Shown here piece after piece: positions 6,800-29,144 of a DNA stretch of 64,000 nucleotides. Made by a program: the position numbers and the translations under genes. How positions within the stretch are numbered: position 1 is the stretch's first letter; the number at the start of each line of letters is the position of its first letter. The notes beneath the pieces were generated by a model. It saw only the letters and a list, made by a program, of their open reading frames with translations. It did not search any database and had not been told where the DNA came from. This DNA comes from Aureibaculum algae. GTDB taxonomy: Bacteria > Bacteroidota > Bacteroidia > Flavobacteriales > Flavobacteriaceae. Where the stretch lies: NCBI RefSeq assembly GCF_006065315.1, contig NZ_CP040749.1, positions 3,804,001 to 3,868,000 of the forward strand. Direction: 5' to 3'.

Positions 6800-6821
6800 A
6801 AACCTAGTAATAGGTCAAACT

Positions 6822-6857: not shown

Positions 6858-6898
6858 GTTTTATAGGGTATCAAACAAAACCATTTAAAACAGTATAA

Positions 6899-6922: not shown

Positions 6923-7016
6923 TTTATCCTAATTTTTCCCTATCTTTAAAGGACTTTTAGAAGCGATTTGACTTTCGTCTTTACAAACAAATAATGTTTA
7001 ATTAAAGACGTACAAC

Positions 7017-10937: not shown

Positions 10938-11035
10938 ATAATTTTAATTTTAATCGTACATTATACGTATACTATTCGTATAATATACGATTATTTTAGT
11001 ATTTAAATGTAATATTGAATAAAGTAGTAAGTCAA

Positions 11036-12160: not shown

Positions 12161-12211
12161 GGATATATGGAGTATATAGGTAACGGTACTTATATCCCTT
12201 CGTTGTCATCA
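12161..12211 (+). other. attI-like junction: recombinase end to first cassette arm
   Basis: Between the recombinase stop and the first cassette lies TATATGGAGTATATAGG, then TTATATCCCTTC, then GTTGTCATCA (12202-12211). The TATAT-spacer-CGTT layout matches the right half of the later cassette sites. It stands where an integron would have its attI. Confidence 0.6.
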
Positions 12212-12243
12212 ATAGCTAAAAGAATCAATTCAAACACAATATC

Positions 12244-13107
12244 ATGAATAGAATTTTAATAATCATAACTATCAGTTTACTGGTGTATTCCTGTTCAAAA
12301 GATGATAGCGGACCTAGAATTTCTGATAATAAACTACTAATTAGCACCTTATCAAATAACAATATTATTGGCATTGATAGTTTATTTTATGAAAATGGAA
12401 AAGTGACAGAGATTAGAGAATACCTGAATAACCAAATTAATCATTCAAGTGGTTTAAAATATTTATACAACGATAGCGGCCAATTGATTAGGCGTTTTCG
12501 GGAAGATAACATGACTATAGTGCCAGTTACTGAAATTAATTACACCTATAATAATGATGGTTCACTAAAATCTAGTGAAGGTTCTATTTCATATCATTAT
12601 TCTTATTATGAAGACACAATTGTCAGAAACGAAGGAAATGAATTCGAGACAAGAATAAAAATTGACAAAAATAAAAGGATTACGACGGTGGAATTAAAAC
12701 CAATAGGGATAAACGAATTTTCTATCTATAGAGAATTTTTTTATACTGGAGATGGTAATATAGATAAAATAGTAGATTATAATATCTTCAGTGGTATGCC
12801 AGATTATGAGTTACTTTTTACATATGATGATCAAATCAACCCGTTTAACTCTTTAGATTATAAAATCAACAACGGTTTAAGTCTGAAAATGTTGGAAGAA
12901 GCGACGAGAGTAGGACACTTTCCTTTTGAAGCGAGTATGTTAGATTGGGGTTATGTCTGTTTTAATAAAAACAATATTGTTTCTTGTTTTCTCGATTCCA
13001 AAGCTGTCGATTATTCATATAAGTATGGAGAAAACAATTATCCAACTGAAGTGGAATTCGACATTGTCCAACAACAAGATTACCGAATCTTTATAAGTTA
13101 TTGGTAG
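12244..13107 (+). CDS. Lipoprotein with YD-repeat-like segments (cassette 1)
   Basis: This 287-residue protein has a lipoprotein signal (MNRILIIITISLLVYSC, lipobox VYSC at about 14-17). The remainder is rich in short strands such as KYLYNDSGQLIRRF and NYTYNNDGSLKSSEG. These recall YD/RHS repeats and are common in Bacteroidota surface lipoproteins. The function is unknown. It is the only gene in the first cassette, starting 33 bp after the cassette arm. A further 137 bp of AT-rich sequence separates its stop from the cassette's end arm. Confidence 0.7.
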   Translation: MNRILIIITISLLVYSCSKDDSGPRISDNKLLISTLSNNNIIGIDSLFYENGKVTEIREYLNNQINHSSGLKYLYNDSGQLIRRFREDNMTIVPVTEINYTYNNDGSLKSSEGSISYHYSYYEDTIVRNEGNEFETRIKIDKNKRITTVELKPIGINEFSIYREFFYTGDGNIDKIVDYNIFSGMPDYELLFTYDDQINPFNSLDYKINNGLSLKMLEEATRVGHFPFEASMLDWGYVCFNKNNIVSCFLDSKAVDYSYKYGENNYPTEVEFDIVQQQDYRIFISYW

Positions 13108-13244
13108 AGATTTTGTGCTATATCAAGAAATGTAACTAGTATTCCAGGAGGGATAATAAATGAGCATGTTGGTGTCGAAAGACTTTACCCAGCCTATAAA
13201 AATAAAAAGCACAAGATAACGTGATTACTCAAATGGGTCGCTAC

Positions 13245-13448
13245 TGATGACAACAATACCTATAGCAAATAGGGCAGAAAGTACTATATTTAATGGCTTG
13301 GGCTTGCTAACTAAGTCCGCCAAATCTTTTGATTTGGCTTTTAAAAAATAAAGATAAAAACAAAACACAAAAGATTTGGCTAAGGGTTTTGGGAAATGTT
13401 CGCTGCGTGTCCGCCGCCCTACTTGCCATAGCCTCACCGTTGTGCCTA
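13245..13448 (+). repeat. attC-like site between cassettes 1 and 2
   Basis: The outer left arm is TGATGACAAC and the outer right arm GTTGTGCCTA. Inside, CTATAGCAAATAGGGC (left) pairs with GCCCTACTTGCCATAG (right), 14 of 16 bases. A central hairpin is formed by GCCAAATCTTTT and AAAAGATTTGGC. The outer arms match their own cassettes rather than each other, as expected for joined cassettes. At about 200 bp it is one of the longest sites in the array. Confidence 0.8.
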
Positions 13449-13458
13449 ATTTGAGAAA

Positions 13459-13890
13459 ATGATTGCCGAAATAAATAAAGCTTGGAATTGGAAAGGATTT
13501 AATGCGACCGAAATAGTTCGGACGAATGACTTTGGCAATGTGATTTTCAAAACGGACAAAACCGAATATTGGAGAATTTGTCCCGAAGAAATAAGTTGCG
13601 AAAAGATTGCGGAATCGGAATCGGAATTTGACCGAATCTCTACCGACTCTGAATTTATAGAAGATTGGGAAATGACAAACCTTGTGGAAATAGCAAAAAC
13701 GGAACTCGGAGAACTAGCGGAAAACCAAAAATACTGTTTAAAGATGCCAGCGATTATTGGTGGAGAATATGAAAAGTCCAATATTGGAAAAATAAGTTTT
13801 GCAGAACTGATTTCTTTTAGTGGAGATTTAGGATTTCAAATAAAGGATTTAAAAGACGGACAGAAAATTAAACTGAATATAAAAAACTAG
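13459..13890 (+). CDS. Tdi1/DUF1851-like small protein (cassette 2)
   Basis: This 143-residue soluble acidic protein contains KTDKTEYWRICPEEISCEKIA, DWEMTNLVEIAKTELG and KYCLKMPAIIGGEYE. This pattern recalls the Tdi1/DUF1851 group, some of whose members are immunity proteins against secreted DNase toxins. The gene fills its cassette: it starts 11 bp after the left arm, and its stop codon TAG is the first three bases of the right arm TAGGCACAAC. Such tight packing is a hallmark of integron cassettes. Specific function unproven. Confidence 0.65.
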   Translation: MIAEINKAWNWKGFNATEIVRTNDFGNVIFKTDKTEYWRICPEEISCEKIAESESEFDRISTDSEFIEDWEMTNLVEIAKTELGELAENQKYCLKMPAIIGGEYEKSNIGKISFAELISFSGDLGFQIKDLKDGQKIKLNIKN

Positions 13891-13903
13891 GCACAACACC
13901 GTG

Positions 13904-14227
13904 TCCTATGTAAAGCACTTTCCCGAGTCTTAGGTTAAATATACAATATTTTTCTTTTTTTTAATTCATGATATTATTTTTAGTGTTGAACTGTTGATTA
14001 CGCTTTTTGCGTTATCAATAATTCAATGCTAGCTTTATAAAACTCCGCATCCTATATGTGGTATCCGTCTTTAGCGAATCCACCAGCATCTCTATGATGA
14101 TTTTGGCAAACAAGGCAACTTGCTATAAATATGTGATAACTGTATTAGAGTTTCACCTACGGTGTTTTGTTGTCCTATCTTTTGTGCCAATTTTATAATG
14201 AGTTTTAAGCTTGTTTTATGTTTTTAT
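13904..14227 (-). ncRNA. Candidate bridge RNA region of the IS110 element (copy 1)
   Basis: This is a 324-bp noncoding stretch downstream of the transposase stop, where IS1111-group elements encode their bridge RNA. On the transposase strand it contains AACACCGT (14166 down to 14159), identical to the eight target bases next to the insertion (13895-13902). It also has several hairpins. The same region exists in the other copies at 19759-20082 and 26427-26750. It has not been folded; the RNA is inferred. Confidence 0.5.
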
Positions 14228-15283
14228 TTAACTAACTACACCTACTTCATAAGGAATTTCAGTTCTAATTACTGCATGAATTCGACTCAAGAGTTTCCTC
14301 GCTACTTTTACCAATATGCGTTTGACATCTTTACCTGAATGTGACCGATAATAGGCCTGCATAACTGGATCAAAACGCAACGCTTGCCAAGTAGCTTCTA
14401 CCAAATAACTACGCATTAGCCGATTTGCTCTTGGGGTTAACCCTGAAGTTTTGAGATTATCTCCACTTTGGTGTACCCAGGGAACCAATCCTACATAACT
14501 GGCTAATTGTTTGAAATTTTTAAAACGCCTTAAATCACCCAATTCACATAATAATCCACAAGCTACTATGCCTCCTACTCCCGGAACTGATCGTAATAAA
14601 TAATAATCTTTCTTATAATGCTTACGACAATAGGCACGTAATTTTGTACTCACATCTCGCTTTTGCTTATCTATATATTCATAGGTAATAAGACGTGTCT
14701 CAAAACAATAATCCATTGTAGGATATTCAAAAGTCAAATTTCTTAACCAATCTCTAAAATTATGAGACCAATGACTATTGTCAAATGGCTTTGGAATTTC
14801 AATCCCCAAATACAACAATTGCATCTTTATTTGAGTCTTTATTTTTCGATGTTCTTTAACCAGCTCATTTCTTCGACGAAACAAACATCTTAACTGCTCT
14901 CGTTCTATTGAAGGAACATGAATTCCTTTGAGTCGGCCATCCTTTAATTCTTTACATAACATACGTGCATCGATCTTGTCGGTCTTTTGAAACTGGGCCT
15001 TGGCTGGACGATGAACATCTGCAGGGTTAACAACCTTTGCATGCCATCCAAATGAAATAAAATGTCGATAATGACTAAAGCCACAACAACCCGATTCATA
15101 ACAGCAATAAACAGTATATCCCTTAAAATGCCTATCCACATACTTTTTTAAACTAAATGCATCTGGTGGAATAGTTAACGATGATCCATCAAAAAGATCC
15201 GTTGCAGTACGAATTTTCCAACTTCGCTTGTGTACGTCAATTCCAATAAATAACTTTGATCTAGTAGTATCCTTTGTTTTCAT
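14228..15283 (-). CDS. IS110-family transposase, copy 1
   Basis: This is a 351-residue DEDD-type transposase. The N-terminal RuvC-like domain starts at LFIGIDVHKRSW, with further acidic residues in CYESGC and KTDKIDARML. The C-terminal Transposase_20 domain contains LLRSVPGVGGIVACGLL and GLVPWVHQSGDNLKTSG, whose serine is the recombination nucleophile in this family. The protein is identical in the three copies in this window, so spread within the genome is recent. It works with a bridge RNA in characterised relatives. Confidence 0.95.
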   Translation of the reverse strand: MKTKDTTRSKLFIGIDVHKRSWKIRTATDLFDGSSLTIPPDAFSLKKYVDRHFKGYTVYCCYESGCCGFSHYRHFISFGWHAKVVNPADVHRPAKAQFQKTDKIDARMLCKELKDGRLKGIHVPSIEREQLRCLFRRRNELVKEHRKIKTQIKMQLLYLGIEIPKPFDNSHWSHNFRDWLRNLTFEYPTMDYCFETRLITYEYIDKQKRDVSTKLRAYCRKHYKKDYYLLRSVPGVGGIVACGLLCELGDLRRFKNFKQLASYVGLVPWVHQSGDNLKTSGLTPRANRLMRSYLVEATWQALRFDPVMQAYYRSHSGKDVKRILVKVARKLLSRIHAVIRTEIPYEVGVVS

Positions 15284-15347
15284 AATAATAAGTTTTTGAA
15301 CCTTAAAGTTATTAACTAAACTTTGGATACTGCTTTTACATGGTTGC

Positions 15348-15470
15348 TATAATTTATTGCTGGCTTCTTGCCTACTTACGAAAGTCCTCGCGGACTTTCT
15401 TGGTCGGTAATTATTTACTAAATTAGTTGCTTAAACCACGCAACAAACCATATACAAACACGTTGGCAAC
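15348..15470 (+). repeat. attC-like site between cassettes 2 and 3, right part
   Basis: The left part is TAGGCACAACACCGTG at 13888-13903; the rest was displaced by IS110 copy 1. Rejoined it reads AACACCGTG-TATAATTTATTGC, then a hairpin GAAAGTCC-TCGC-GGACTTTC, and closes with GCAACAAACCATATAC and CACGTTGGCAAC. Inner ends (TATTGC / GCAAC, GTATA-like / ATATAC) are mutually complementary. Confidence 0.8.
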
Positions 15471-15480
15471 AAGCAAAAAA

Positions 15481-15681
15481 ATGGAGAGAAAAGAATTTGA
15501 GTTAATTTTTGGCATTTTAAGTTTATTAGTTTCTATCATTTGGGGTTATTACAAAATAAAAGATTGGAACAGAATGAAAAAAGATGACCATATCAGGAAG
15601 TCTTATAGTATACAAATAATCGGCGGCCTTATTGTCTTTTTTATGATAGGAATTGTTGGAATTTATAGATATTTCTCTTAA
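15481..15681 (+). CDS. Small two-span membrane protein (cassette 3)
   Basis: This 66-residue protein has two predicted membrane segments, about residues 7-22 (LIFGILSLLVSIIWGY) and 44-62 (IQIIGGLIVFFMIGIVGIY), joined by a basic loop (KIKDWNRMKKDDHIRK). I do not recognise a family. The ATG at 15481 follows the cassette arm by 10 bases, so an earlier in-frame start would lie inside the recombination site and is unlikely. It is followed by a collapsed cassette site and a second gene. Confidence 0.65.
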   Translation: MERKEFELIFGILSLLVSIIWGYYKIKDWNRMKKDDHIRKSYSIQIIGGLIVFFMIGIVGIYRYFS

Positions 15682-15751
15682 TCAAATGAGTGTTGAACAA
15701 ATTCAGATAATGGAACATTATTGAAATGAAAATAAGCGAAATAGATATAAA

Positions 15752-15767
15752 GCCAGTTGGCAACAAG
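15752..15767 (+). repeat. Collapsed cassette site (left and right arms fused)
   Basis: GCCAGTTGGCAACAAG joins the start of a left arm (AAGCCAGTT, as at 18298-18306) directly to the end of a right arm (GTTGGCAACAAG, as at 15462-15473). The 120 or so bases of a normal site are missing, fusing two cassettes into one unit. Confidence 0.6.
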
Positions 15768-15774
15768 TTGAAAA

Positions 15775-16275
15775 ATGAAATACAAAATACTTATATTAAT
15801 AATTCTAACTCTTAGTATTGGAATAGAATCATATGCCTGTAACTGTGGAATACCCAAGAGTTTAGAACTTGAGCAAGATTATAATTATGAAAATTCAGAA
15901 TGTATATTTGTTGGCGAAGTTCTTGAAGTGAATAAAACTGAAAATACTTTTACAATTAAAGTTATTGAATCTTTTAATGGAAATGATAATTTAAACGTTT
16001 ACAAAGGAACATATGACGAACAATGCGGGCCAATAATTGATACAAAAGGAAAATGGCTTATCTATGCGAACTTGAACTCTGATAATATTCTTGTTGTAGG
16101 AAGTTGCGGAATTTCAAGGAACTTTAAAAATCCTGAATATAATGTTACAATTGAGGGACTTTTAATTAAAGAATTTAAAGGAACTGCTGAAGATCAAGGG
16201 AAAAAATTTAATGATAAGGGAAAAAAGGACTTGAAAGTTGAAATAGAAAGATTGAGAGTGAAAAAAGAGGAATAA
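15775..16275 (+). CDS. Secreted TIMP/NTR-like protein (cassette 3/4)
   Basis: This 166-residue protein has a signal peptide (MKYKILILIILTLSIGIESYA). The mature form begins with CNCGIPKSLE, the Cys-x-Cys start of netrin-like/TIMP domains. ECIFVGEVLEV and GPIIDTKGKWLIYAN continue the OB-like fold, with more cysteines (EQCGP, GSCGIS). In animals such domains inhibit metalloproteases; bacterial versions are uncharacterised. The C-terminus is lysine rich. It lies 8 bp behind the collapsed site and its cassette closes with GTTGCCAAC at 16282. Confidence 0.7.
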   Translation: MKYKILILIILTLSIGIESYACNCGIPKSLELEQDYNYENSECIFVGEVLEVNKTENTFTIKVIESFNGNDNLNVYKGTYDEQCGPIIDTKGKWLIYANLNSDNILVVGSCGISRNFKNPEYNVTIEGLLIKEFKGTAEDQGKKFNDKGKKDLKVEIERLRVKKEE

Positions 16276-16281
16276 CGGCCA

Positions 16282-16415
16282 GTTGCCAACAATATATAAA
16301 ATCAATACGGGGGATTTTCCTTCGGGAAAATCCCAGCTAATTTACTAACTTTGGTCTATTAACAAAGTTGGTGGCTTATTTAGTCCGCACAGCTTTTATA
16401 CTCAACGTTGGCAAC
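16282..16415 (+). repeat. attC-like site between cassettes 4 and 5
   Basis: The 134-bp site starts GTTGCCAAC and ends GTTGGCAAC, which are perfect reverse complements. Next inward come AATATATAAA on the left and TTTTATACTCAAC on the right. A central hairpin has stem GGATTTTCC / GGAAAATCC with a TTCG loop, followed by a second stem AACTTTG / CAAAGTT. No IS interrupts it, so it is a good reference for the site. Confidence 0.85.
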
Positions 16416-16471
16416 AAGCTGAATGACTGTACTTTCCTGAAATAGGATGACAAAAAAATTTATCAAAAACT

Positions 16472-17038
16472 ATGATTAAAGAATACTTATCTTCTATTAA
16501 TATATTTAAAAATTCAGAAATAGATGAAGTAATCCAATTTGGGAGTTATCATAAATATAAAAAAGGAGATTTTTTTATTAAGGAAGGACAAATAAGTAAG
16601 AATATGGCGTTTATAAATTCAGGGATTTTGCGTTCATATTACTATTCTAATTCAGGAAACGAAATAACTTATTGTTTATCATTTCCTGAATCATTCATTA
16701 CAGCATTCTCTTCATATATTTCACAAGAAAAATCAAGTATCAATATACAAGCATTAAGTGATACGGAGCTATTTGTAATACAAAAAAATCAAATGGATAA
16801 GCTAATTAAAGAAAACACAAATTGGCTTCTATTTCAAAAACAAACAGCAGAAAAATATTTCATGACACTTGAAAAAAGAGTATTTGAACATCAAAAAGAA
16901 AAAGCAGAAAATAGATATACCAATTTGATTAAAAGACACCCCGAATATATTAAACAAATTCCTCTTCAGTATATAGCTTCCTATCTTGGCATTACACAAA
17001 GACATCTTAGCCGAATAAGAGCCAAAACTGATTTTTAG
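16472..17038 (+). CDS. Crp/Fnr-family transcription regulator (cassette 5)
   Basis: This 188-residue protein has an N-terminal cyclic-nucleotide-binding fold (KGDFFIKEGQISKNMAFINSGILRSYYY). A C-terminal helix-turn-helix follows (IPLQYIASYLGITQRHLSRIRAK). Residues that contact cAMP in Crp are not evident, so another or no ligand is likely, as in most Bacteroidota members. It lies 72 bp ahead of the SRPBCC gene in the same cassette and may control it. Confidence 0.88.
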   Translation: MIKEYLSSINIFKNSEIDEVIQFGSYHKYKKGDFFIKEGQISKNMAFINSGILRSYYYSNSGNEITYCLSFPESFITAFSSYISQEKSSINIQALSDTELFVIQKNQMDKLIKENTNWLLFQKQTAEKYFMTLEKRVFEHQKEKAENRYTNLIKRHPEYIKQIPLQYIASYLGITQRHLSRIRAKTDF

Positions 17039-17110
17039 ACAATTGTCTAATAGTTAATGTAGCTTCAGAATTAAATTTGTATATAAATAAATCCATAAAA
17101 TTTAATTTTC

Positions 17111-17560
17111 ATGAATACATTGACTTCAAAAACAGTAACTATTAATAGAACAATAAAAGAAGTATATAAATTTACAACTAACATGGAAAACTTCAAATCG
17201 TGGTTTCCAAAAGTTATAAAAATAGAATCTAATAATTCATTGAATCATGCAATTGTTGGAAAAAAATACATTGAAACCGTTATAGTACCTTTTAAAGGAG
17301 AGAGTATAATTTCTTTAAATGTTGTAAAAGCAGAAGAAAATAAAATCTTCATTACTGAAGGTGATTTTTCACCATTATTCCCTAAGATGACTATAAAATT
17401 TCATGAAAATTCATCTAATACCACAACTTTAACTTGGTGTATGCAAAGCAGAAATACTAATTTGATATTTACATCTCTATTGTTGCCAATATTTAAAAAA
17501 ATCATGAATAAAAGAGCTAAAATTGGTGTGCAAAATTTAAAGACTATATTAGAAAAATAA
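17111..17560 (+). CDS. SRPBCC-family protein (cassette 5)
   Basis: The 149 residues have the START/Bet v 1-like pattern: TVTINRTIKEVYKFTTNMENFKSWFPKVIKIE at the start, then strands with GKKYIETVIVPFKGE, and a long C-terminal helix (LLPIFKKIMNKRAKIGVQNLKTILE). Members bind hydrophobic ligands in a central cavity or act as cyclases and stress proteins. The substrate is unknown. It is the second gene of the regulator cassette and may be its target. The cassette closes 15 bp after the stop. Confidence 0.8.
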   Translation: MNTLTSKTVTINRTIKEVYKFTTNMENFKSWFPKVIKIESNNSLNHAIVGKKYIETVIVPFKGESIISLNVVKAEENKIFITEGDFSPLFPKMTIKFHENSSNTTTLTWCMQSRNTNLIFTSLLLPIFKKIMNKRAKIGVQNLKTILEK

Positions 17561-17574
17561 AAATTGATGTAAAA

Positions 17575-17780
17575 ATTCAGCTAACACAGGTTAAAATTAA
17601 TACTGGCTTTTGGTGCTTGCCCAAAGTTTAGTGCATATTTACTAAGTCGCCAAATCTTGTTGATTTGGCTTTGTGATAACCAAAGAAACAAAACCAAACA
17701 AAAAGCTTCGGCTTAGTTGCGTGTTCAAAAATCTTGTCGATTTTCTGCCCGCACAAAGCCTAGCCAAAACTGTTGACAAC
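17575..17780 (+). repeat. attC-like site between cassettes 5 and 6
   Basis: It begins ATTCAGCTAACACAGG and ends CTGTTGACAAC. A TTAATACTGGC segment matches the left half of other sites (TTTATTGCTGGC). The centre has GCCAAATCTTGTTGATTTGGC, a 7-bp stem, as at 13319-13338. The left arm matches AGCTGAAT at the start of cassette 5 rather than the GTTGGCAAC directly before it. Confidence 0.75.
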
Positions 17781-17815
17781 AACCAGAAAATCGAACTACA
17801 AACAAAATTTAATCA

Positions 17816-18286
17816 ATGAATTCAACCGAAGTTATTTTATTAAACTTTTCCGAAATTAGAAGACGGAGTATAAAGTTATGGAGCGGAATTCCTAATGAAT
17901 ACCTGAATTGGAAACCTGACGAAAATGCGTTCACAATTATCGAAATGATAAGACACGTTTTAGAGGGTGAACATCTTTTCCATAAAATTATAGAAAATCG
18001 TGGGAATTTAGGAAATTACAAATCACCTTGGAAAGAACTAAAATATTCAGACTTGAAAAACGAACTGGATTTTGCCGAAAATTATCGAGCGGATTTTTTG
18101 AGTATGATAAATAGACTGAACGAATCGGATTTAGAGAATGTAAAGATTGAGAGAAAGGAAGTGGGACAAAGCAAAAAACTTGGAGATTATCTGAATCGAA
18201 TTGCATATCACGAAACTGTTCACACAGGACAAATGTTGAGCTATTTAAGAACAATTGGAATTGACCGACCTCAAATATGGGATTAA
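17816..18286 (+). CDS. DinB-family protein (cassette 6)
   Basis: This 156-residue four-helix-bundle protein of the DinB/YfiT superfamily has NEYLNWKPDENAFTIIEMIRHVLEGEHLF at the front and RIAYHETVHTGQMLSYLRTIG at the back. These supply the histidines (HVLEGEH, YHETVH) that bind a metal in this superfamily. Members act as thiol-dependent S-transferases or are induced by DNA damage. The substrate is unknown. It is the only gene in its cassette, with the left arm 36 bp before the start and the right arm 17 bp after the stop. Confidence 0.88.
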   Translation: MNSTEVILLNFSEIRRRSIKLWSGIPNEYLNWKPDENAFTIIEMIRHVLEGEHLFHKIIENRGNLGNYKSPWKELKYSDLKNELDFAENYRADFLSMINRLNESDLENVKIERKEVGQSKKLGDYLNRIAYHETVHTGQMLSYLRTIGIDRPQIWD

Positions 18287-18302
18287 CTGAAATGAAAAGC
18301 CA

Positions 18303-18440
18303 GTTGCCAACACAGTATATAAAAAATTGCTAGTTTTAGCTAAACCAAAGTTAGTTGCTTGTTTGCTAGCTTCTGATTTTCCTTCGGAAAATCCTCTCAC
18401 ACAAACACGCAACTTTCCATATACATAACCGTTAGCACTA
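18303..18440 (+). repeat. attC-like site between cassettes 6 and 7
   Basis: An uninterrupted 138-bp site. Left: GTTGCCAAC, then ACA, GTATAT, then AAAAAATTGC. Right: GCAACTTTCC, ATATAC, ATAACC, then GTTAGCACTA. The GTATAT/ATATAC and TTGC/GCAA pairs face each other with unequal spacers, like the extrahelical asymmetry of attC. The central hairpin is GATTTTCC-TTC-GGAAAATC. Confidence 0.85.
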
Positions 18441-18546
18441 ATTAAACTCAACTTTCCGAAAGCTGATAAAGTTTAACCATTATTTAACAACCGTTTTTTA
18501 CATTACGCTATACATTTGAAAAAAACATTTTATCTAATTTTTTGAT

Positions 18547-19734
18547 ATGACAAAACAATTCTTAATAATAATTTTATTATTCTGTTCCAACATCTATGGA
18601 CAAAATATAAAAGACAATATTGTTGGTTCTTCTTTATTAATTCAATCTAAAATAATGAATGATGAGAGAGAGATTCAAATCTTCTTACCAGATGGCTATG
18701 CAGATTCTGATATAACATATCCTGTTCTCTATGTTTTAGATGGTCAGCGATATTTTTTACACGCGGTAAGTCTTCAAAAGTCATTTATTGAATTCAAGCA
18801 AACACCTGAATTTATAATAGTTGGAATTTCAAAGAAAATATCTGATAGAAATAGAAACTTTAGTGTGAATTCACAAAAGTACTTGGACTTCATTAAAAAG
18901 GAAGTTATTGACTATATTGATAACCAATACAGAACGTCTGAAAAACGGATGTTATTCGGTTGGGCATTTGGTGGAGGTTTTGTTATTGAAACGATGACAA
19001 ATGAACCAGATTTATTTAATGTCTACATTTCAGCAAGTCCATTTCCGCTAAAAGGAAAAATAAATGAAATAGATAGCTTTCTAACAGAAAATCCAAATTT
19101 CAATAAATTATTATTTTTTAGTTCTGGAACAAATGAAGGTGTTGTAAAAGATGGAACGAATGAACTAAACTTACTTTTAACAGATAAAGCACCAAAAACA
19201 ATGAATTGGGTCTTTAGAGAATTACAAGATGAAGAACATAGGTCCACACCATTCACTACACTATATCACGGAATTAAAGAATACTACAACTACTTTCCTG
19301 AATTGCAATTCAATAGCCTTGAGGAATTCTCAAATGCTGGCGGATTAGATTATGTTTATAATTATTATCAAAAACGAGCATCAGAATTTGGGTTTTCAAA
19401 AGATTTGTCTGATTGGACAATGTTTACATTAACAAGAAACGCCATAAGAGCAAATGACTATAATCAATTTAATAACTTTGTAAATGACTTTAAGAGCACA
19501 GAATTTATCAGCAGATTAAGAGTAACCCGAGCTTGTTCAATTGCAGAATTTTATTTAAAACACAACGAATATGATAAAGCAATTAAGTTGTTTTTGTTTT
19601 TAGCAGAAAAACACCCTAACTCTGAAAGACCTCTGAACGGATTGGGAGACACTTACAAAGAATTGAAAAAAGAAATAAAGGCTTCTTCATATTATAAAAA
19701 AGCAAAAAAAATATCTGAAAGTAATTCTAACTGA
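18547..19734 (+). CDS. Secreted alpha/beta-hydrolase esterase with TPR tail (cassette 7)
   Basis: This 395-residue protein has a signal peptide (about 1-18, ending IYGQ). An esterase-D-like domain follows (IFLPDGYADSDITYPVLYVLDGQRYFLHAV, FIIVGISKK-type strand, DYIDNQYRTSEKRMLFGWAFGGGFVIE). The nucleophile elbow reads G-W-A-F-G-G, with alanine where the family has serine, so hydrolysis may be lost. The C-terminal TPR-like part (NEYDKAIKLFLFLAEKHPNSERPLNGLGDTYKEL) is usual in the Bacteroidota branch. Its cassette has the perfect arms GTTAGCACTA / TAGTGCTAAC. Confidence 0.78.
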   Translation: MTKQFLIIILLFCSNIYGQNIKDNIVGSSLLIQSKIMNDEREIQIFLPDGYADSDITYPVLYVLDGQRYFLHAVSLQKSFIEFKQTPEFIIVGISKKISDRNRNFSVNSQKYLDFIKKEVIDYIDNQYRTSEKRMLFGWAFGGGFVIETMTNEPDLFNVYISASPFPLKGKINEIDSFLTENPNFNKLLFFSSGTNEGVVKDGTNELNLLLTDKAPKTMNWVFRELQDEEHRSTPFTTLYHGIKEYYNYFPELQFNSLEEFSNAGGLDYVYNYYQKRASEFGFSKDLSDWTMFTLTRNAIRANDYNQFNNFVNDFKSTEFISRLRVTRACSIAEFYLKHNEYDKAIKLFLFLAEKHPNSERPLNGLGDTYKELKKEIKASSYYKKAKKISESNSN

Positions 19735-19758
19735 ATAATAACTAGTGCTAACACCGTT

Positions 19759-21202: not shown

Positions 21203-21294
21203 TATAATTAATGGCTAGTTCTGGCTTGCTTACGAAAATCCTCGTGGATTTTGAACTGCCCCCAAAAAGTTAGACACTATTTGAGGGTGTTTTT

Positions 21295-21825: not shown

Positions 21826-21866
21826 GGCATAAGTATGATTTAGATATATTACTACATCATACAAAT

Positions 21867-22649: not shown

Positions 22650-22781
22650 TTATAAATTTGTCTAATCTTTTGGGTGCAGTCTATTTTCTATTCGGTTTTT
22701 ATTTGCTAAATTAGGTGCTTAAACACGCCACTAATCATACACGTATTCCAAGGTCAAATCCTAATAATTTATAACTTATTT

Positions 22782-23774
22782 TTAAGCTGCATATTTTTGG
22801 ATTTCTACATAAGGCGTTCCTCTTTTCACTACTGCAAATGCTCTTGATAAAATCTTATTTCTAACATTATTTAAAGCAACCATTTTTGGTTTACCTTCTT
22901 CGAGTTTCTTCTTGTAATATTGTTTTAGTTCTTTATCGCACTGTATAGCACTCACGCTGGCAAGTGTTAAAAGTGTTTTCATTTTTCTATCTCCTATATG
23001 GTGTATTCTATTCCTTCTTCTAATACTGGTTCCAGAACTGTGTTCAAAAGGTGCAACACCACAATAGCTAGAAAATTGTCGCCAACTATTGAATCGTTTA
23101 AAGTTGCTCGTGTGATATATAATCTGACAAGAAAGTATTAATCCGACTCCTTTTAAGGTATTTAGAAGCTTAAAATTCTTATCGAGTGATTTATCACTTT
23201 TCATTAATTTTTTAATACAAAGTTCTAGAGCTTCAATTTGTTTTGTGAGATAATGAATGGTCTTTTTGATAATTCTACAACAGTTGTCGGTTGAAGGACT
23301 ACTAAGTAAAGATTGCATTTCTTTAAGGCTACTCATCTTGCCTGTTCGATCTCTTACTAGCTGTTCTCTAATCGATAATAATCTGCCCAACTCTTGAACG
23401 TGATTTTCTTTTGGTGTACTAAGAAGTAGTTCTTCTTTATGTAACCAAGCATACCTAGCTATCATACCCGCATCAAGTTTATCTGTTTTACCTCTAACAA
23501 TACCTACAGATCGTTTGATTGCTAAGGGACTTTGTTCAATATAATCTATATTGTTTTCTGATAGGTAAACACTCAGGTTTGTAGAGTAATGTCCTGTATT
23601 CTCAAAACAGAAAAAATAGACTTGCTCTTTTAAATACGTTTCCGTCCATGACAATAGTGCTTTGTAACCCTTAGTAGTGTTAGAAAACACTCGATGTACT
23701 GCTCTGTTATGGATATGTGCATCGATTGTTAATTTAGATACATCAATTCCTATAACATCTACATAATTTTTCAT
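22782..23774 (-). CDS. IS110-family transposase, second type
   Basis: This 330-residue DEDD/serine transposase begins YVDVIGIDVSKLTIDAHIHN. Further acidic positions lie in CFENTGHYS and GKTDKLDAGMIARYA. The C-terminal Transposase_20 domain reads LLNTLKGVGLILSCQII and YCGVAPFEHSSGTSIRRRNR, with the nucleophile serine pair. It is distantly related to the 351-residue transposase here and lacks its GDNLKTSG motif. The frame is intact. Confidence 0.93.
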   Translation of the reverse strand: MKNYVDVIGIDVSKLTIDAHIHNRAVHRVFSNTTKGYKALLSWTETYLKEQVYFFCFENTGHYSTNLSVYLSENNIDYIEQSPLAIKRSVGIVRGKTDKLDAGMIARYAWLHKEELLLSTPKENHVQELGRLLSIREQLVRDRTGKMSSLKEMQSLLSSPSTDNCCRIIKKTIHYLTKQIEALELCIKKLMKSDKSLDKNFKLLNTLKGVGLILSCQIIYHTSNFKRFNSWRQFSSYCGVAPFEHSSGTSIRRRNRIHHIGDRKMKTLLTLASVSAIQCDKELKQYYKKKLEEGKPKMVALNNVRNKILSRAFAVVKRGTPYVEIQKYAA

Positions 23775-24003
23775 ATTTTTAAATATTATTTCCTTTTAAA
23801 AAGAAATGATTAATAAATGTTGCAATGACTATCACCTTTATTAGGAAAAAATTCCTGGTATTCCAAATGGTCCTAAGCAACCTAAGAGAGACAAGAGGAC
23901 TCATACGTATATAGGAACTGCTATTCCAAAGACCGTTATAGTTCTCCTCTTGTTTCTTAGTAAAGTTAATTAACTATTTAATAGCACGGTAAAGTAAAGA
24001 AGA
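23775..24003 (-). ncRNA. Candidate bridge RNA region of the second IS110 element
   Basis: This noncoding stretch lies upstream of the transposase start, the place where IS110-group elements encode bridge RNA. It has repeats GGTATTCCAAATGG and GCTATTCCAAAGACCGTT. AAGACCGTT also occurs at the target side (23999-24008). Structure not computed; inferred. Confidence 0.4.
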
Positions 24004-24034
24004 CCGTTGTAAAACATTTACCACTAGCCATACT

Positions 24035-25192
24035 TTAACCTTTCTTATAGGTAAAAAGCATATAAACTAGAGAAGAAAATGTTATTATAGCATAAAAATA
24101 GAATACAATAAAAACCTCTGAAATACCATTTTGATAATACCATCCAGAACCAAGAGCCCCTAGACCAATTCCAATTTCTAAAGCTATAAACATAGTAGCA
24201 ATAGCTTTACCCTTTTCTTTCGGATTGCATAAATCGACCGTCCAAGCATTTAAAGTTGGAGCTAATATGCCTATGGCAATCCCATAGATACAAGCTCCAA
24301 CTACTAAACCATTTTTTGTTTGATAAAAACCTAGTATAAGAAAAGATATAGAAAGAAAAATTAATCCCATAATGATTATTAATTGACGACTATATTTATC
24401 TGACAATTTTCCAGCAACAAATCTAATCAATAATGACGCTAGAGTAAAAATAATAAAAAATAGACCTTTATTCATTATTCCTAAATAATTTGATAATAAA
24501 GGAATAAGTGTTAATACGATACCAAATGACAAATAGGAAATAAATGTAATTATTGCAGGATAAATAACTTTTACATCAATAATATCATTCTTTTTTATTC
24601 TTAAAAAAGAGATTTGAAAGTTCCTTTTATCAACTAAAGTTTCTTTTAAATTTATAATACATAATATTGATAATAATGAAATAAATGACGAACAGTAAAA
24701 CAAAAAATTATATGACTGATGTAGTTTTATAAAACTACCCAAAACAGGACCTAAAGCTAAACCTGAACTAAAAAAAAGACTTTGTATTCCTAAAGCTTCT
24801 CCCCAACGATTTGAAGGTATAATATCCGTTAAAAAGGCTGCAAAAGCCGTTGGGCTAAAACCTGTTGAAAAGCCGTGTAAAAACCTTAAAAGTAAAAAAC
24901 CATAAACTGTTGTTAAAATTGGATATAGAAAACCACATATAATACACACGATTATTCCAATTAACATTACAGGTTTTCTTCCAATAGTATCGGTTAATTT
25001 TCCACTAAAAGGTCTTGAAACACCAGCTGTAAGTGTAAATAATGCGATAATTAAACCTATATATTTTTTTCCTCCAAGGCTTTCTAAATAAGTTGGAAGT
25101 TCAGGAATTAACATATTATAGCTAGATGAAAACAGTAATGAACTCAAACATATAAGTCCAAAATCAAAAGTATAGATAGATTTATTTTTCAT
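24035..25192 (-). CDS. MFS efflux-type transporter (cassette 8)
   Basis: This 385-residue protein has about 12 membrane spans. MFS signatures are visible: the loop 2-3 motif GKLTDTIGRKPVMLIG, RFLHGFSTGFSPTAFAAFLTDIIPSNRWGEALGI, and GKLSDKYSRQLIIIMG in the second half. This fits drug or metabolite efflux of the DHA1 type. It is downstream of the HD-domain gene in the same minus-strand operon, so it reads against the array direction. The cassette also holds a plus-strand Crp/Fnr gene that may regulate both. Confidence 0.88.
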   Translation of the reverse strand: MKNKSIYTFDFGLICLSSLLFSSSYNMLIPELPTYLESLGGKKYIGLIIALFTLTAGVSRPFSGKLTDTIGRKPVMLIGIIVCIICGFLYPILTTVYGFLLLRFLHGFSTGFSPTAFAAFLTDIIPSNRWGEALGIQSLFFSSGLALGPVLGSFIKLHQSYNFLFYCSSFISLLSILCIINLKETLVDKRNFQISFLRIKKNDIIDVKVIYPAIITFISYLSFGIVLTLIPLLSNYLGIMNKGLFFIIFTLASLLIRFVAGKLSDKYSRQLIIIMGLIFLSISFLILGFYQTKNGLVVGACIYGIAIGILAPTLNAWTVDLCNPKEKGKAIATMFIALEIGIGLGALGSGWYYQNGISEVFIVFYFYAIITFSSLVYMLFTYKKG

Positions 25193-25197
25193 ACGAA

Positions 25198-25773
25198 CTA
25201 TCTATTATAAAGTGATTTAATTGTTTTCTCTACATATTCCCAAATAGTGCTGGAACCTAACTTAATCTTTTCTGTTTTTTTAATAACATTCTCATAAATT
25301 ACATTAAACTCAAACCAAGTACCACCATTATTTGATTGATTTTGAAGTACAGGCTGAAACCTATCCATTGCTTTTGCAAATTTAGCTTCACTCGTTTCTC
25401 CTTCCTCGAATTCTTTCCAAATTGCAATTAAATCCTCTGCTTGGTTCTTTGGTAAAATTCCAAAAATACGTTTTGCAGCAACAAATTCTTCAGCTGTATT
25501 ATCGTGATTTTTTTTTGTGTCAAATAAAAAAGTATCACCAGCATCTATTTCAACAATATCGTGAATCAATAACATTTTTAAAACCTTTAAAACATCAATA
25601 TTTTCATTGGAATGTTCGTCCAAAATAATTGCCATTAATGATAAATGCCAACTATGTTCTGCATCATTTTCTCTCCTGTTACTATTAAATAACCTCGTTT
25701 TACGCTCAATATATTTTAGTTTATCTACTTCTTTGATAAACTCAATTTGCTTTTTTAATCGACTTGATTCCAT
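25198..25773 (-). CDS. HD-domain phosphohydrolase (YfbR/HDDC2-like) (cassette 8)
   Basis: The protein has 191 residues from the ATG at 25773; a longer frame to 25839 would cross the divergent promoter. The metal-binding HD pattern is clear: RRENDAEHSWHLSLMAIIL, LLIHDIVEIDAGDTF and EEGETSEAKFAKAMDRFQPVLQ. Relatives are 5'-deoxynucleotidases acting on dNMPs. It starts a two-gene operon with the MFS gene and diverges from the Crp/Fnr gene, 75 bp apart. The substrate is inferred from the family only. Confidence 0.85.
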   Translation of the reverse strand: MESSRLKKQIEFIKEVDKLKYIERKTRLFNSNRRENDAEHSWHLSLMAIILDEHSNENIDVLKVLKMLLIHDIVEIDAGDTFLFDTKKNHDNTAEEFVAAKRIFGILPKNQAEDLIAIWKEFEEGETSEAKFAKAMDRFQPVLQNQSNNGGTWFEFNVIYENVIKKTEKIKLGSSTIWEYVEKTIKSLYNR

Positions 25774-25848
25774 ATTTGTTAATCTTAAGACTACAAATAA
25801 AAAGTAATACCTTTGATTTATAAAGGACATTTGTCTCAACTGAAAAAA

Positions 25849-26403
25849 ATGATTAGAACAAATATTGAACTATTGGAATATATTGAAGCATTTAGAAATT
25901 CAATTCATTATTTTATTGAAGAGGAAATTCAAAAGGAGCAAAAAATAATATACCAGAATAGAAATAGCTCTTTTGGGTATATTATTAAAAATGGCATTGC
26001 AAAATGTTTTTTAACGGATGAGAATGGAAATGATTTTATTCAAGAATTTTTTAGTGAAGGAGAATTATTTGGAGAAATTGAAATAATAAATAATACTAAT
26101 AACTTTTGCACAGTTGAATCTATTTCAGAAATGACCGTTTATAAAATATCTAAAACCAACTTTCAATATCTTTTAGAAAATGACCAAAAATTTAATAATT
26201 TAATTATGAAATCATTTGCGAAAAAAATTCAATATAAAGCAGTAAGACATTCTTATAATCAACTGCATTCTATTAAATCTAATCTTTTTAGATTGCAACA
26301 ATCAACTTTAGATTTTATGGAAATTATTTCAAAAAATGATATCGCAAGCTATTTAGGAATTAGTTTAAGAAGTTTAAATAGGATTTTAAAAGATAAGAGT
26401 TAA
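25849..26403 (+). CDS. Crp/Fnr-family regulator (cassette 8)
   Basis: The protein has 184 residues from the ATG at 25849. An upstream ATG (25813) lies inside a -7-like TACCTTTG (25808-25815) and is unlikely. The cyclic-nucleotide-binding fold (SSFGYIIKNGIAKCFLTDENGNDFIQEFFSEGELFGEIEII) precedes a C-terminal HTH (ISKNDIASYLGISLRSLNRILK). It diverges from the HD/MFS operon and probably regulates it. The cassette ends 8 bp after the stop with GTTTTACAAC. It is distinct from the regulator in cassette 5. Confidence 0.88.
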   Translation: MIRTNIELLEYIEAFRNSIHYFIEEEIQKEQKIIYQNRNSSFGYIIKNGIAKCFLTDENGNDFIQEFFSEGELFGEIEIINNTNNFCTVESISEMTVYKISKTNFQYLLENDQKFNNLIMKSFAKKIQYKAVRHSYNQLHSIKSNLFRLQQSTLDFMEIISKNDIASYLGISLRSLNRILKDKS

Positions 26404-26426
26404 CAAAAACGTTTTACAACACCATA

Positions 26427-27870
26427 TCCTATGTAAAGCACTTTCCCGAGTCTTAGGTTAAATATACAATATTTTTCTTTTTTTTAATTCATGATATTAT
26501 TTTTAGTGTTGAACTGTTGATTACGCTTTTTGCGTTATCAATAATTCAATGCTAGCTTTATAAAACTCCGCATCCTATATGTGGTATCCGTCTTTAGCGA
26601 ATCCACCAGCATCTCTATGATGATTTTGGCAAACAAGGCAACTTGCTATAAATATGTGATAACTGTATTAGAGTTTCACCTACGGTGTTTTGTTGTCCTA
26701 TCTTTTGTGCCAATTTTATAATGAGTTTTAAGCTTGTTTTATGTTTTTATTTAACTAACTACACCTACTTCATAAGGAATTTCAGTTCTAATTACTGCAT
26801 GAATTCGACTCAAGAGTTTCCTCGCTACTTTTACCAATATGCGTTTGACATCTTTACCTGAATGTGACCGATAATAGGCCTGCATAACTGGATCAAAACG
26901 CAACGCTTGCCAAGTAGCTTCTACCAAATAACTACGCATTAGCCGATTTGCTCTTGGGGTTAACCCTGAAGTTTTGAGATTATCTCCACTTTGGTGTACC
27001 CAGGGAACCAATCCTACATAACTGGCTAATTGTTTGAAATTTTTAAAACGCCTTAAATCACCCAATTCACATAATAATCCACAAGCTACTATGCCTCCTA
27101 CTCCCGGAACTGATCGTAATAAATAATAATCTTTCTTATAATGCTTACGACAATAGGCACGTAATTTTGTACTCACATCTCGCTTTTGCTTATCTATATA
27201 TTCATAGGTAATAAGACGTGTCTCAAAACAATAATCCATTGTAGGATATTCAAAAGTCAAATTTCTTAACCAATCTCTAAAATTATGAGACCAATGACTA
27301 TTGTCAAATGGCTTTGGAATTTCAATCCCCAAATACAACAATTGCATCTTTATTTGAGTCTTTATTTTTCGATGTTCTTTAACCAGCTCATTTCTTCGAC
27401 GAAACAAACATCTTAACTGCTCTCGTTCTATTGAAGGAACATGAATTCCTTTGAGTCGGCCATCCTTTAATTCTTTACATAACATACGTGCATCGATCTT
27501 GTCGGTCTTTTGAAACTGGGCCTTGGCTGGACGATGAACATCTGCAGGGTTAACAACCTTTGCATGCCATCCAAATGAAATAAAATGTCGATAATGACTA
27601 AAGCCACAACAACCCGATTCATAACAGCAATAAACAGTATATCCCTTAAAATGCCTATCCACATACTTTTTTAAACTAAATGCATCTGGTGGAATAGTTA
27701 ACGATGATCCATCAAAAAGATCCGTTGCAGTACGAATTTTCCAACTTCGCTTGTGTACGTCAATTCCAATAAATAACTTTGATCTAGTAGTATCCTTTGT
27801 TTTCATAATAATAAGTTTTTGAACCTTAAAGTTATTAACTAAACTTTGGATACTGCTTTTACATGGTTGC
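26427..27870 (-). mobile_element. IS110-family element (IS1111-like), copy 3
   Basis: This is the third 1444-bp copy, inserted between AACACCATA and TATAATTTATTGC of a cassette site, in the same orientation as copies 1 and 2. Its 3' noncoding part is at 26427-26750. Confidence 0.88.
26751..27806 (-). CDS. IS110-family transposase, copy 3
   Basis: This 351-residue protein is identical to the copies at 14228-15283 and 20083-21138, with intact DEDD and serine domains. Identity of all three proteins despite differing neighbours shows recent copying within this array. Confidence 0.95.
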   Translation of the reverse strand: MKTKDTTRSKLFIGIDVHKRSWKIRTATDLFDGSSLTIPPDAFSLKKYVDRHFKGYTVYCCYESGCCGFSHYRHFISFGWHAKVVNPADVHRPAKAQFQKTDKIDARMLCKELKDGRLKGIHVPSIEREQLRCLFRRRNELVKEHRKIKTQIKMQLLYLGIEIPKPFDNSHWSHNFRDWLRNLTFEYPTMDYCFETRLITYEYIDKQKRDVSTKLRAYCRKHYKKDYYLLRSVPGVGGIVACGLLCELGDLRRFKNFKQLASYVGLVPWVHQSGDNLKTSGLTPRANRLMRSYLVEATWQALRFDPVMQAYYRSHSGKDVKRILVKVARKLLSRIHAVIRTEIPYEVGVVS

Positions 27871-27997
27871 TATAATTTATTGCTGGCTTCTCGCCTACTT
27901 ACGAAAGTCCTCGCGGACTTTCTATCTGTGATTTATTTGCTAACTTTAGTGCTTAAAACACGCAACTAATCTTATACAAACACGTTAACTGCAATTA
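27871..27997 (+). repeat. attC-like site between cassettes 8 and 9, right part
   Basis: The left part is GTTTTACAACACCATA at 26411-26426, ahead of IS110 copy 3. This part reads TATAATTTATTGCTGGC, a hairpin GAAAGTCC-TCGC-GGACTTTC, then CGCAACTAATC, TTATACAAACAC and the arm GTTAACTGCAATTA (27984-27997). It is very close in sequence to the site at 15348-15470. Confidence 0.8.
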
Positions 27998-28480
27998 TGA
28001 CCCGTCCTGAATAAAGGCTACATAATTTTAAACATTATGTATAGAAATGACAAAGTAATTAGACGGTATTCAGAACCATTTAAATTGAAAATATTAGCCG
28101 AACTTACCACCGGAAAACACACAAAGAGCGAACTTTGTAAACTCTACTCTATTGCACCAACAACAGTCAATGAGTGGATTAAAAAGTACAATCGTAAAGA
28201 CTTAATGAACACCAGAGTAAAAGTGGAAACAAAAGACGAAATATCTAGAATTAAAACCCTTCAAAAAGAAATTGAACAGCTAAAAAAACTACTACTTAAA
28301 AAGGATCTAGATGCTATGGTATTAGATTCTTACCTAGAAGTAGCTGCTGAAGATCTAGGATATAAATCTGTTGCTGAGCTAAAAAAAAAGCTAAGTATAA
28401 AGCCTTAATCAAAGCTAAAGAGAAATCTAAGGGATTTGCTTCTTTAACATGACCCGTCCTGAAATAAGGCTACATAATTT
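27998..28480 (+). mobile_element. IS3-family remnant with duplicated left end
   Basis: TGACCCGTCCTGAATAAAGG (27998) recurs in the same orientation at 28450 as TGACCCGTCCTGAAATAAGG. Each copy continues GCTACATAATTT. Only the orfA part lies between them; the catalytic orfB and a proper inverted right end are missing. Confidence 0.7.
28037..28408 (+). pseudogene. IS3-family OrfA of a truncated element
   Basis: The 123 residues have an HTH (YSEPFKLKILAELTTGKHTKSELCKLYSIAPTTVNEWIKKY) and a coiled-coil tail (ISRIKTLQKEIEQLKKLLLKKDLDAMVLDSYLEVA). The orfA frame itself is intact, but no orfB follows, so the element cannot transpose by itself. About 40 bp after the stop comes a second copy of the element's left end. 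Confidence 0.8.
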
Positions 28481-28602
28481 GCAACAAGTTTGCATTAAAA
28501 TAATAGTATTAGACTAATATGAATTATTGTATACTTATTGAAGTTTTGCACTTTTCTAAAGTTTACGTATTTTAGACAAACGGTTAAAAATAATCTGTAA
28601 AA

Positions 28603-29109
28603 ATGACACCAATAGAACTGGATATTCAAAAAATAGATAATATCAGTAAACAGAAGGAACAAGAAAATCTAAAGTTTCGTACTTTTCTAAAAGGACAAGA
28701 TGATGTAAAATTGGATAGGATTGTGCATAGGTTGAATAAGTGTGTAGAAAGTCAAATTGACTGTACCGATTGTGGAAATTGTTGTAAAAATTTGAGGCCC
28801 TGTGTTAATAGTATGGAAATTGACACCCTGAAGTCAATTGATAAAGTTTCGCGAGAATATTTTGTAGAAAATTTTATTGAACAAAATGAATTAGAAGATA
28901 TTAAATTTCTAAAAGGCACCCCCTGTAAGTATTTAATTGATAAAAAATGTTCTATTTATGATGTTAGACCAAATGATTGTAAATCTTACCCACATATTAA
29001 TAAAAAAAAATTTAATTCAAGAACTTGGGGTATTATTGAAAATTACGCGATTTGCCCAATTGTTTTCAATGTGATTGAAAGATTAAAAACGGAATTAAGA
29101 TTTAGATAA
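28603..29109 (+). CDS. YkgJ-family cysteine-cluster protein (cassette 9)
   Basis: This 168-residue protein has a cysteine pattern typical of YkgJ/UPF0153: CTDCGNCCKNLRPCV, then GTPCKYLIDKKCSIYDVRPNDCKSYPH, and a late CPIV. These cysteines are thought to bind zinc or an Fe-S cluster. The function is unknown. It is the only complete gene in the last cassette, placed behind an IS remnant. The cassette's end arm (ATAATTGCA at 29126) matches its start less well than the others. Confidence 0.85.
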   Translation: MTPIELDIQKIDNISKQKEQENLKFRTFLKGQDDVKLDRIVHRLNKCVESQIDCTDCGNCCKNLRPCVNSMEIDTLKSIDKVSREYFVENFIEQNELEDIKFLKGTPCKYLIDKKCSIYDVRPNDCKSYPHINKKKFNSRTWGIIENYAICPIVFNVIERLKTELRFR

Positions 29110-29144
29110 TTTTTTAAATATAATGATAATTGCAACCTGACCGT

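Follow-up and report, generated by a model that had tools for sequence, protein, structure and literature searches.

An integron-like cassette array and a Xer-type tyrosine recombinase in Aureibaculum algae and other Bacteroidota

What moves the cassettes of a gene array that resembles an integron and has no canonical integron integrase beside it? The question is raised by a 64,000-nucleotide (nt) stretch of the Aureibaculum algae genome (contig NZ_CP040749.1, positions 3,804,001 to 3,868,000), here called the window, in which eight cassette-like units occupy positions 12202-29142. The array very probably belongs to an integron-like system, in which cassettes enter at one insertion point only, beside the gene of a Xer-type tyrosine recombinase that would move them as circles. 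Most sequence tests for an integron are passed and the test for the IntI enzyme is failed; the system is therefore called integron-like with a different recombinase. An earlier note on this DNA had likewise described an integron-like array without a canonical integrase, and that description holds: the neighbouring recombinase scores below the IntI cut-off, lacks the IntI insert and lies outside the IntI group. Overlooked at the time were this recombinase, whose gene lies just outside the range then considered, and the insertion sequence (IS) copies inside the sites.

The units of the window share one plan: a GTT start, in most cases an inverted copy of the unit's own start, an imperfect inverted repeat and the GTT of the next unit, the final GTT being at 29143 (Table 1). 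Start and end arms are exactly complementary over 9-10 nt in five of the eight units (1, 2, 3, 6 and 7), which agrees with the coordinates given earlier, and unit 5 matches at eight of nine positions. Three extra matches between starts and ends of different units arise because the starts of units 3 and 4 are alike, as are the ends of units 3 and 5. A second GTTGGCAACAAG lies inside cassette 3, at 15756. A classical integron, too, gives its cassettes matching arms; the matching stressed in the earlier note is thus real and, for that reason, not new by itself.

The same arms recur among relatives. A scan of named genomes matched at least 586 stretches; 532 of those listed encode relatives of the recombinase, and the best 80 of the 532 were kept. 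Their genera, which include Aquimarina, Arenibacter, Maribacter, Winogradskyella and Gillisia, are flavobacteria. First-cassette starts came from 77 of 84 loci (the 80 named loci and four in the host genome; loci bear L numbers): in L072, L098 and L107 the sequence runs out within about 55 nt of the stop codon, and L059, L115, L119 and L120, the last with a pattern hit, were dropped for an unclear leader. Before any arms were compared, 23 starts had been placed by eye using the leader pattern. After 21 of the 77 loci were set aside for too little sequence, 56 remained, four of them from the host genome. An inverted copy of the first cassette's own 9-mer lies within 5 kb downstream in 50 of these 56, against 1.84 expected from swapped starts; the counts are 51 against 4.73 expected for 8-mers and 37 against 0.79 for 10-mers. 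In arrays of more distant platforms, where sites were located by covariance model (as the earlier note had proposed) and not by arms, exact matches occur in 36 of 44 consecutive cassettes and in none of 56 comparisons across junctions; shuffled pairing of the 44 averages 1.46 and reaches at most 6 in 1,000 trials. This test used 56 of 91 model hits, with the host genome, five loci whose hits were single and scattered (L158, L160, L161, L167 and L169) and two L173 hits excluded. The outcome that the earlier note had named as fatal to its proposal, arms no better than shuffled pairs, is therefore not what these arrays present.

The box at the unit starts differs from that of known integrons. A set of 193 units was chained by exact 9-nt arms and a GTT followed by A or G, so that positions 1-9 are selected; position 11 is partly selected in the 55 first units and unselected in the 138 later ones. 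Arm pairing continues at positions 10 (142 of 193 units), 12 (174), 13 (179) and 14 (142) and is found at position 11 in only two units. There the start has A in all 193 units (including 138 of 138 later units) and the end has C in 157, and an A opposite a C on the top strand means a G.T wobble on the bottom strand. The start box is GTTR, with A at position 5 in a single unit, T never at position 6 and T at position 12 in 170; the classical core box GTTRRRY describes 10 of the 193 units and is not the box of these arrays. The longest open reading frame (ORF) lies on the array strand in 166 units and on the other strand in six, and 21 have none of 50 amino acids (aa), so that the cassettes mostly carry an ORF in one orientation. 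One cassette of L012 (14008-15905) appears by eye to hold two genes, of TcmP and Gp37 type; its arms are unmatched and it is perhaps a fusion.

A single insertion point is indicated by comparing platforms, that is, a recombinase gene with its leader and array. The host genome (one contig of 5.17 Mb, C1) has four, each followed by such sites. The recombinase protein of the second (C1:2761536-2762678) is 100% identical to that of the window, and those of the two others (C1:553858 and C1:1394621) are 40-41% identical. Window positions 10224-12205 are 97.4% identical to the second copy and diverge from it at GTT; beyond that point the two arrays differ, with later common blocks at 99.6-99.98% identity (nearly all of cassette 3 among them, at 99.6%) that lie about 7 kb and 1.6 kb apart in the second array, with other sequence in between. 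Three joins of common blocks fall at GTT. Units common to two arrays of one genome, with other units in between, speak for the integron-like reading. Whole units differ between platforms, and the fixed gene order that would have told against the earlier note is absent; conserved operons were rejected on the same observation. In 11 of 11 closely related platform pairs, identity is 90-100% over the 300 nt that precede GTT and 57-64% over the 300 nt that follow it, the level of random pairs (mean 60%, maximum 65%); the pairs were chosen among 63 loci by similarity of the last 400 nt, and three are the pairs among the window, L009 and L045. This switch suggests that the GTT beside the recombinase gene is an insertion point of the attI kind.

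The leader before this point is often a palindrome. Perfect inverted repeats of at least 8 nt occur in 61% of the 77 leaders and in 1.3% of random 48-mers from the same loci, and in 53 of the 77 the end of the longest repeat is separated from GTT by 3 to 7 nt. The arms vary widely between loci yet remain complementary, and the palindrome therefore seems to be kept as such. In the window the leader shows, by eye, the imperfect inverted repeat GGATATA...TATATCC. Also by eye, leaders look like the 3' half of an attC, and two tandem palindromes lie between gene and GTT in L084, L089, L093, L095, L097, L103, L111 and L117.

Duplicated cassettes bear on whether the arrays are active at all. In Arenibacter L062 the first cassette is repeated later in the array at 100% identity over 654 nt, with GTT at both borders and the likeness running on to the next GTT; in L090 the first cassette is repeated at 90.5%. 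A comparison for the same cassette in different positions gave eleven matches: five are internal to one array, two pair a stretch with its own reverse complement, and four join different genomes (L070-L104, L097-L163, L102-L089 and L112-L051, at 80-87% identity). An array of old repeats with no active system, its arms kept matched by gene conversion or constraint, would account for the decayed arms of units 4 and 8 and for the many sites broken by IS. It is extremely improbable in view of the identical GTT-bounded duplicate, the almost identical cassettes shared with other units in between, and the fall from 90-100% identity to the random level at GTT in all 11 pairs.

With covariance model R1, the host genome yields 52 sites at E<=0.01. 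Seventeen of them, in one orientation, extend over C1:555546-630118 after one platform and, if continuous, would form an array of about 75 kb. Five and three R1 sites at C1:1987764-2017887 and 3238754-3244640 have no matched recombinase within 60 kb and resemble integron clusters without an integrase. Ahead of both 381-aa platforms stand a tRNA-Pro (found by ARAGORN in the window, by similarity in L009) and then a recombinase-like ORF of 421-422 aa (window 6724-8282, L009 3943-5506; 89.6% identical), as if these platforms lay in tRNA-Pro integrative islands.

The platform recombinase shares 98% identity with an Aureibaculum luteum protein and consists of a SAM-like domain, a Phage_integrase domain and an N-terminal domain of about 100 aa. 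Residues R240, K265, H329, R332, H355 and Y364, presumably the catalytic ones, are invariant in 99 alignment rows. The protein passes model NF040815 (XerA type), whose NCBI product name, 'site-specific tyrosine recombinase/integron integrase', serves as a label rather than a test. It does not pass the IntI model TIGR02249 (198.6 bits against a cut-off of 265, the match split in two pieces). Against the IntI4 structure (2a3v), residues 178-242 (65 residues) are unmatched and the recombinase has 23 in their place; the enzyme is thus without the IntI-specific I2 domain that marks tyrosine recombinases as IntI, an insert present in all 30 phylum IntI loci shown, where it ends in a WQxxxP motif. 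A tree of 63 rows puts 21 IntI in one separate group (support 100/99) and the array recombinases within a group of 38 (99/96) together with other Bacteroidota recombinases; the tree is rooted at the midpoint, includes 14 of 20 distant loci (the other six were not caught by motif) and carries the tool's warning that the long IntI and XerC/D branches meet. Fold searches liken the catalytic part to archaeal Xer, XerA and IntI4 (4a8e and 5hxy rank first, 2a3v close behind) and scarcely cover residues 1-105. The structure model, built from 99 rows with a mean predicted local distance difference test (pLDDT) score of 87.5, superseded a 16-row model at 65.8. The N-terminal domain is predicted as b-b-a-b-b-a-b and has no match in Pfam; the best solved match of its profile (positions 8-45) is the HARP domain of SMARCAL1. 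A possible distant kinship with the HARP fork-binding domain is a lead only. L171 and L174 carry a recombinase of another subtype (motif HSYATHLLESGADMRFIQELLGH), with array and gene divergent as in classical integrons.

Enzyme and sites occur together across the phylum, where such arrays are found in many Bacteroidota and most of all in Flavobacteriaceae. Among 198 Bacteroidota genomes (at most 16 candidates scored in each, model R1 only), sites at E<=1e-3 were found in 79, the recombinase at E<=1e-50 in 75 and IntI over its cut-off in 57. Recombinase and site coincide in 49 genomes, the recombinase stands alone in 26, the site alone in 30, and 93 have neither (p=1.8e-8). In the recombinase's own family, 128 of 199 genomes match the single recombinase protein at E<=1e-40. 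Genomes G282, G330, G342 and G352 have at least five R1 sites and no recombinase-clade match at E<=1e-50.

These counts also bear on the idea that the array is a canonical integron served in trans by a true IntI elsewhere, the neighbouring recombinase being a bystander. Canonical IntI is common enough in the phylum for this, and the 30 genomes with sites and no match to the array recombinase would suit it. The idea is nevertheless very improbable. IntI at E<=1e-70 is absent from the 19 own-family genomes sampled, the host genome included. IntI is not associated with two or more sites (both in 13 genomes, IntI alone in 44, sites alone in 45, neither in 96; p=0.23), and two or more sites occur in just 2 of 33 IntI-only genomes, as against 16 of 90 with neither enzyme. 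The covariance model gave no match with E under 0.2 around 20 canonical IntI loci (286 kb), the best being E=0.24, and in 73 of the 80 named loci a leader and a GTT start follow directly after the recombinase gene, which places the insertion point immediately 3' of it. A regular-expression scan for classical attC in the 20 IntI stretches was uninformative because both strands gave equal counts; folded candidates stand around IntI in four of them (L181, L187, L193 and L196), and in one (L200) the IntI gene was not found by motif. A canonical integron was rejected on the enzyme, that is, on cut-off, missing insert, tree position and the lack of IntI in the sampled family genomes.

The sites themselves are predicted to have the inverted repeats of an attC (R', L', L'' and R'') and to fold on the bottom strand. 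With lengths taken from the first fitting GTT, the distances between arms fall into classes of 54-55 nt (6 sites), 114-121 (78), 153-157 (10) and 171-193 (45), with three outside; classes 118 and 182 are about 64 nt apart and class 54 lies a further step below, as if the sites were modular. The alignments hold 51 (A2) and 34 (A3) sites, drawn from 67 and 40 non-redundant ones. For the 118-nt class (51 sites), 21 pairs make up the consensus; compensatory changes occur in 13 of these pairs, and one G.T pair is invariant (51/51). Its inner stem, read on the bottom strand, comprises 679 Watson-Crick pairs, 121 G.T, 3 A.C, 12 other mismatches and one gap. Of 142 distinct sites, 128 have the better minimum-energy fold on the bottom strand and two tie (DNA parameters for single sites; the consensus fold used RNA parameters). 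One extra, extrahelical base occurs in 8 of the 51 aligned sites, so that the extrahelical bases of known attC are not a feature of this class. Among more distant members of the recombinase clade, covariance-model matches occur at 15 of 20 loci. At gathering cut-offs, known RNA families in Rfam matched only two tRNAs in the window.

The strand bias weighs on a further alternative, in which the recombinase would use Xer-like sites in duplex DNA, with palindromes for dimer binding and the asymmetry as a by-product. An enzyme without the IntI insert, with archaeal Xer and XerA among its nearest solved relatives and a leader so often palindromic, would fit such a picture. A duplex palindrome, however, gives no evident reason for 121 G.T against 3 A.C on one strand, nor for an invariant G.T pair or the constant A at position 11 with C mostly opposite, and this alternative is judged unlikely.

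In the integron-like reading, the recombinase would insert and excise cassettes as circles just as an integron does, with an enzyme from another branch. It would bind the bottom strand folded as a hairpin, cut next to GTT in the outer arms and join the end to the attI-like site. The outer arms of a circular cassette would form 9-10 base pairs, the conserved G.T at position 11 and about three further pairs; the bottom-strand G.T wobbles, which are A.C mismatches on the top strand, may select the strand in place of the extrahelical bases of known attC, and the N-terminal domain may help to hold the folded DNA. A wider proposal is put forward with moderate confidence: Bacteroidota may have a second integron, in which a Xer-type recombinase without I2, in a clade apart from IntI, inserts bottom-strand hairpins chosen by G.T pairs into a hairpin-like attI, with arrays throughout the phylum, one perhaps of 75 kb.

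Several points weigh against the integron-like reading. Recombination, circles and strand use are deduced from sequence. The arms of window units 4 and 8 do not match, six of the 56 first cassettes lack their own 9-mer, and the window's leader repeat is imperfect, with a longest perfect arm of 5 nt. Not every join of common blocks is at GTT: one is at a GTC variant, one 10 nt inside a unit and two in an IS3-like element. The top strand folds better in 12 of the 142 sites. No site was found in 26 of the 75 recombinase genomes at E<=1e-3, nor in five of the 20 distant-member loci (three of which stop within about 140 nt after the gene); 30 genomes show the reverse, sites and no recombinase match, and L171 and L174 have their sites upstream of the recombinase gene. 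Five members (L165, L166, L168, L169 and L170; 274-310 aa) are without the N-terminal domain, and four of these have sites, so that the domain cannot be essential; its HARP match is weak (E=0.011) and finds no counterpart in Pfam. Parts of one classification of tyrosine recombinases indicate that conservation of the IntI insert is incomplete in its integron-like subgroup (PMC8138268), and such enzymes may therefore have been grouped with IntI before.

Insertion sequences of two families enter the sites at fixed points, which also speaks for the integron-like reading. Three copies of a 1,444-bp IS110-family element lie inside repeats of the window. Overall the element is in six distinct attC at the same left junction (with two more copies in common cassettes), both junctions lie within the stretch read in five of the six, and the transposase of one copy is classed as IS110. 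The attC of cassette 6 is interrupted by this IS110, by an IS3-like element (by eye) and by a second IS110-family element (22782-23774). A 1,756-bp element, of the IS1182 family by the transposase in L009, occupies seven attC at a different fixed point. An IS110/IS1111-type transposase in attC at a fixed point, a feature of the IS1111-attC group, is thus present here; IS1111 itself is defined by subterminal inverted repeats. The genes of cassette 7, named by eye, are MFS-like and HD-like proteins on the minus strand and a Crp-like regulator on the plus strand.

Table 1. Positions of features in the window, followed by those of the 1,756-bp element in related loci
Feature	Position	Strand	Content
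Platform tyrosine recombinase	11015..12160	+	381 aa from TTG; 374 aa from ATG 11036, the length of the nearest relative
attI-like leader	12161..12204	+	about 44 nt, directly after the recombinase stop codon; ends in insertion point GTT (12202-12204)
Cassette 1	12202..13438	+	ORF 12244-13107, without family match; start GTTGTCATCA, end TGATGACAAC at 13245-13254
attC of cassette 1, reaching the cassette 2 arm	13246..13447	+	182-nt class; model R2 155.9 bits, R1 36.1 bits
Cassette 2	13439..15461	+	type VI secretion system (T6SS) immunity Tdi1 C-terminal domain protein 13459-13890; start GTTGTGCCTA, end TAGGCACAAC at 13888-13897; attC with IS110
IS110-family element in cassette 2 attC	13904..15347	-	transposase 14228-15283
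Cassette 3	15462..16406	+	ORF 15427-15681 as listed (in-frame ATG 15481), ORF 15775-16275; end GTTGCCAAC at 16282-16290
attC of cassette 3	16282..16415	+	model R1
Cassette 4	16407..17771	+	cNMP-binding domain protein 16472-17038, Polyketide_cyc2 17111-17560; arms unmatched, end 17577-17585
attC of cassette 4	17577..17780	+	model R2, 110.8 bits
Cassette 5	17772..18430	+	DinB superfamily protein 17816-18286; arms 8/9, end 18303-18311
attC of cassette 5	18303..18439	+	model R1, 103.3 bits
Cassette 6	18431..24005	+	esterase with TPR 18547-19734; start GTTAGCACTA, end TAGTGCTAAC at 19743-19752
IS110-family element, second copy, same attC point	19759..21202	-	
Cassette 7	24006..27983	+	start GTTGTAAAAC, end GTTTTACAAC at 26411-26420; attC with IS110
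IS110-family element, third copy, same attC point	26427..27870	-	
Unit 8	27984..29142	+	IS3-like ORF 28037-28408, CxxCxxCC protein 28603-29109; arms unmatched, end 29127-29136; array end in window
1,756-bp element sites	L009 11352; L010 1094; L011 (reverse) 9303 and 16585; L012 15921; L204 5290 and 11258		

No paper describing these arrays was found in the literature searched, whose coverage excludes most subscription papers and all preprints. Passages of one integron survey name that of Salinibacter ruber as the single complete integron in Bacteroidetes proper (PMC9024848), and Bacteroidota or the Bacteroidetes/Chlorobi group appear among integron carriers in portions of three others (PMC8618304, PMC9668308 and PMC2426708). 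The novelty lies in the enzyme, in the box consensus and in how the sites are built. Integron surveys seek IntI and attC of known form; if the readings above are right, a large Bacteroidota cassette pool would have been overlooked. The I2 domain would then be dispensable for cassette recombination, and the passage from a Xer-type enzyme to a single-strand recombinase would be testable by comparing two separate solutions.

Among the closest known systems are IntI integrons, such as class 1 integrons and the Vibrio superintegron. They too have an attI beside the integrase gene, an array of mostly one-ORF cassettes, and attC sites that are imperfect inverted repeats folding on the bottom strand and entered by IS1111-type elements. 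They differ in the enzyme, since the array recombinase has no IntI insert and forms a separate group; in the box, GTTR rather than GTTRRRY, with A at position 11 (193 units) and mostly T at position 12 (170); and in the leader, which is attI-like and often palindromic here. In Treponema-type integrons intI is in line with the array, and the recombinase gene of these platforms likewise reads towards its array, unlike the usual IntI arrangement. Excerpts of one source describe integron R arms as complementary over 9-11 nt and known attC as picking the strand by extrahelical bases (PMC2727003), whereas the present arms can span 14 positions, of which the A at 11 is unpaired, and the sites have G.T pairs instead of extrahelical bases.

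Xer and archaeal XerA share with the array recombinase the NF040815 model and the top structures 4a8e and 5hxy; the array recombinase differs in its position at cassette arrays, its extra N-terminal domain and its four copies in one genome. Integration of CTXphi by XerCD follows a single-strand mechanism. In systems of this type a Xer-type enzyme acts on a phage site with a stem, according to part of one source (PMC4792948). There the host's XerCD is borrowed, whereas here the recombinase has its own insertion point and cassette array. Entry of IS1111-type elements into attC of classical integrons is likewise described in sections of the literature (PMC11187229), and the IS1111-attC group has in common with the present elements an IS110-type transposase in attC at one fixed point; the difference lies in the host sites, which are the Bacteroidota attC described here.

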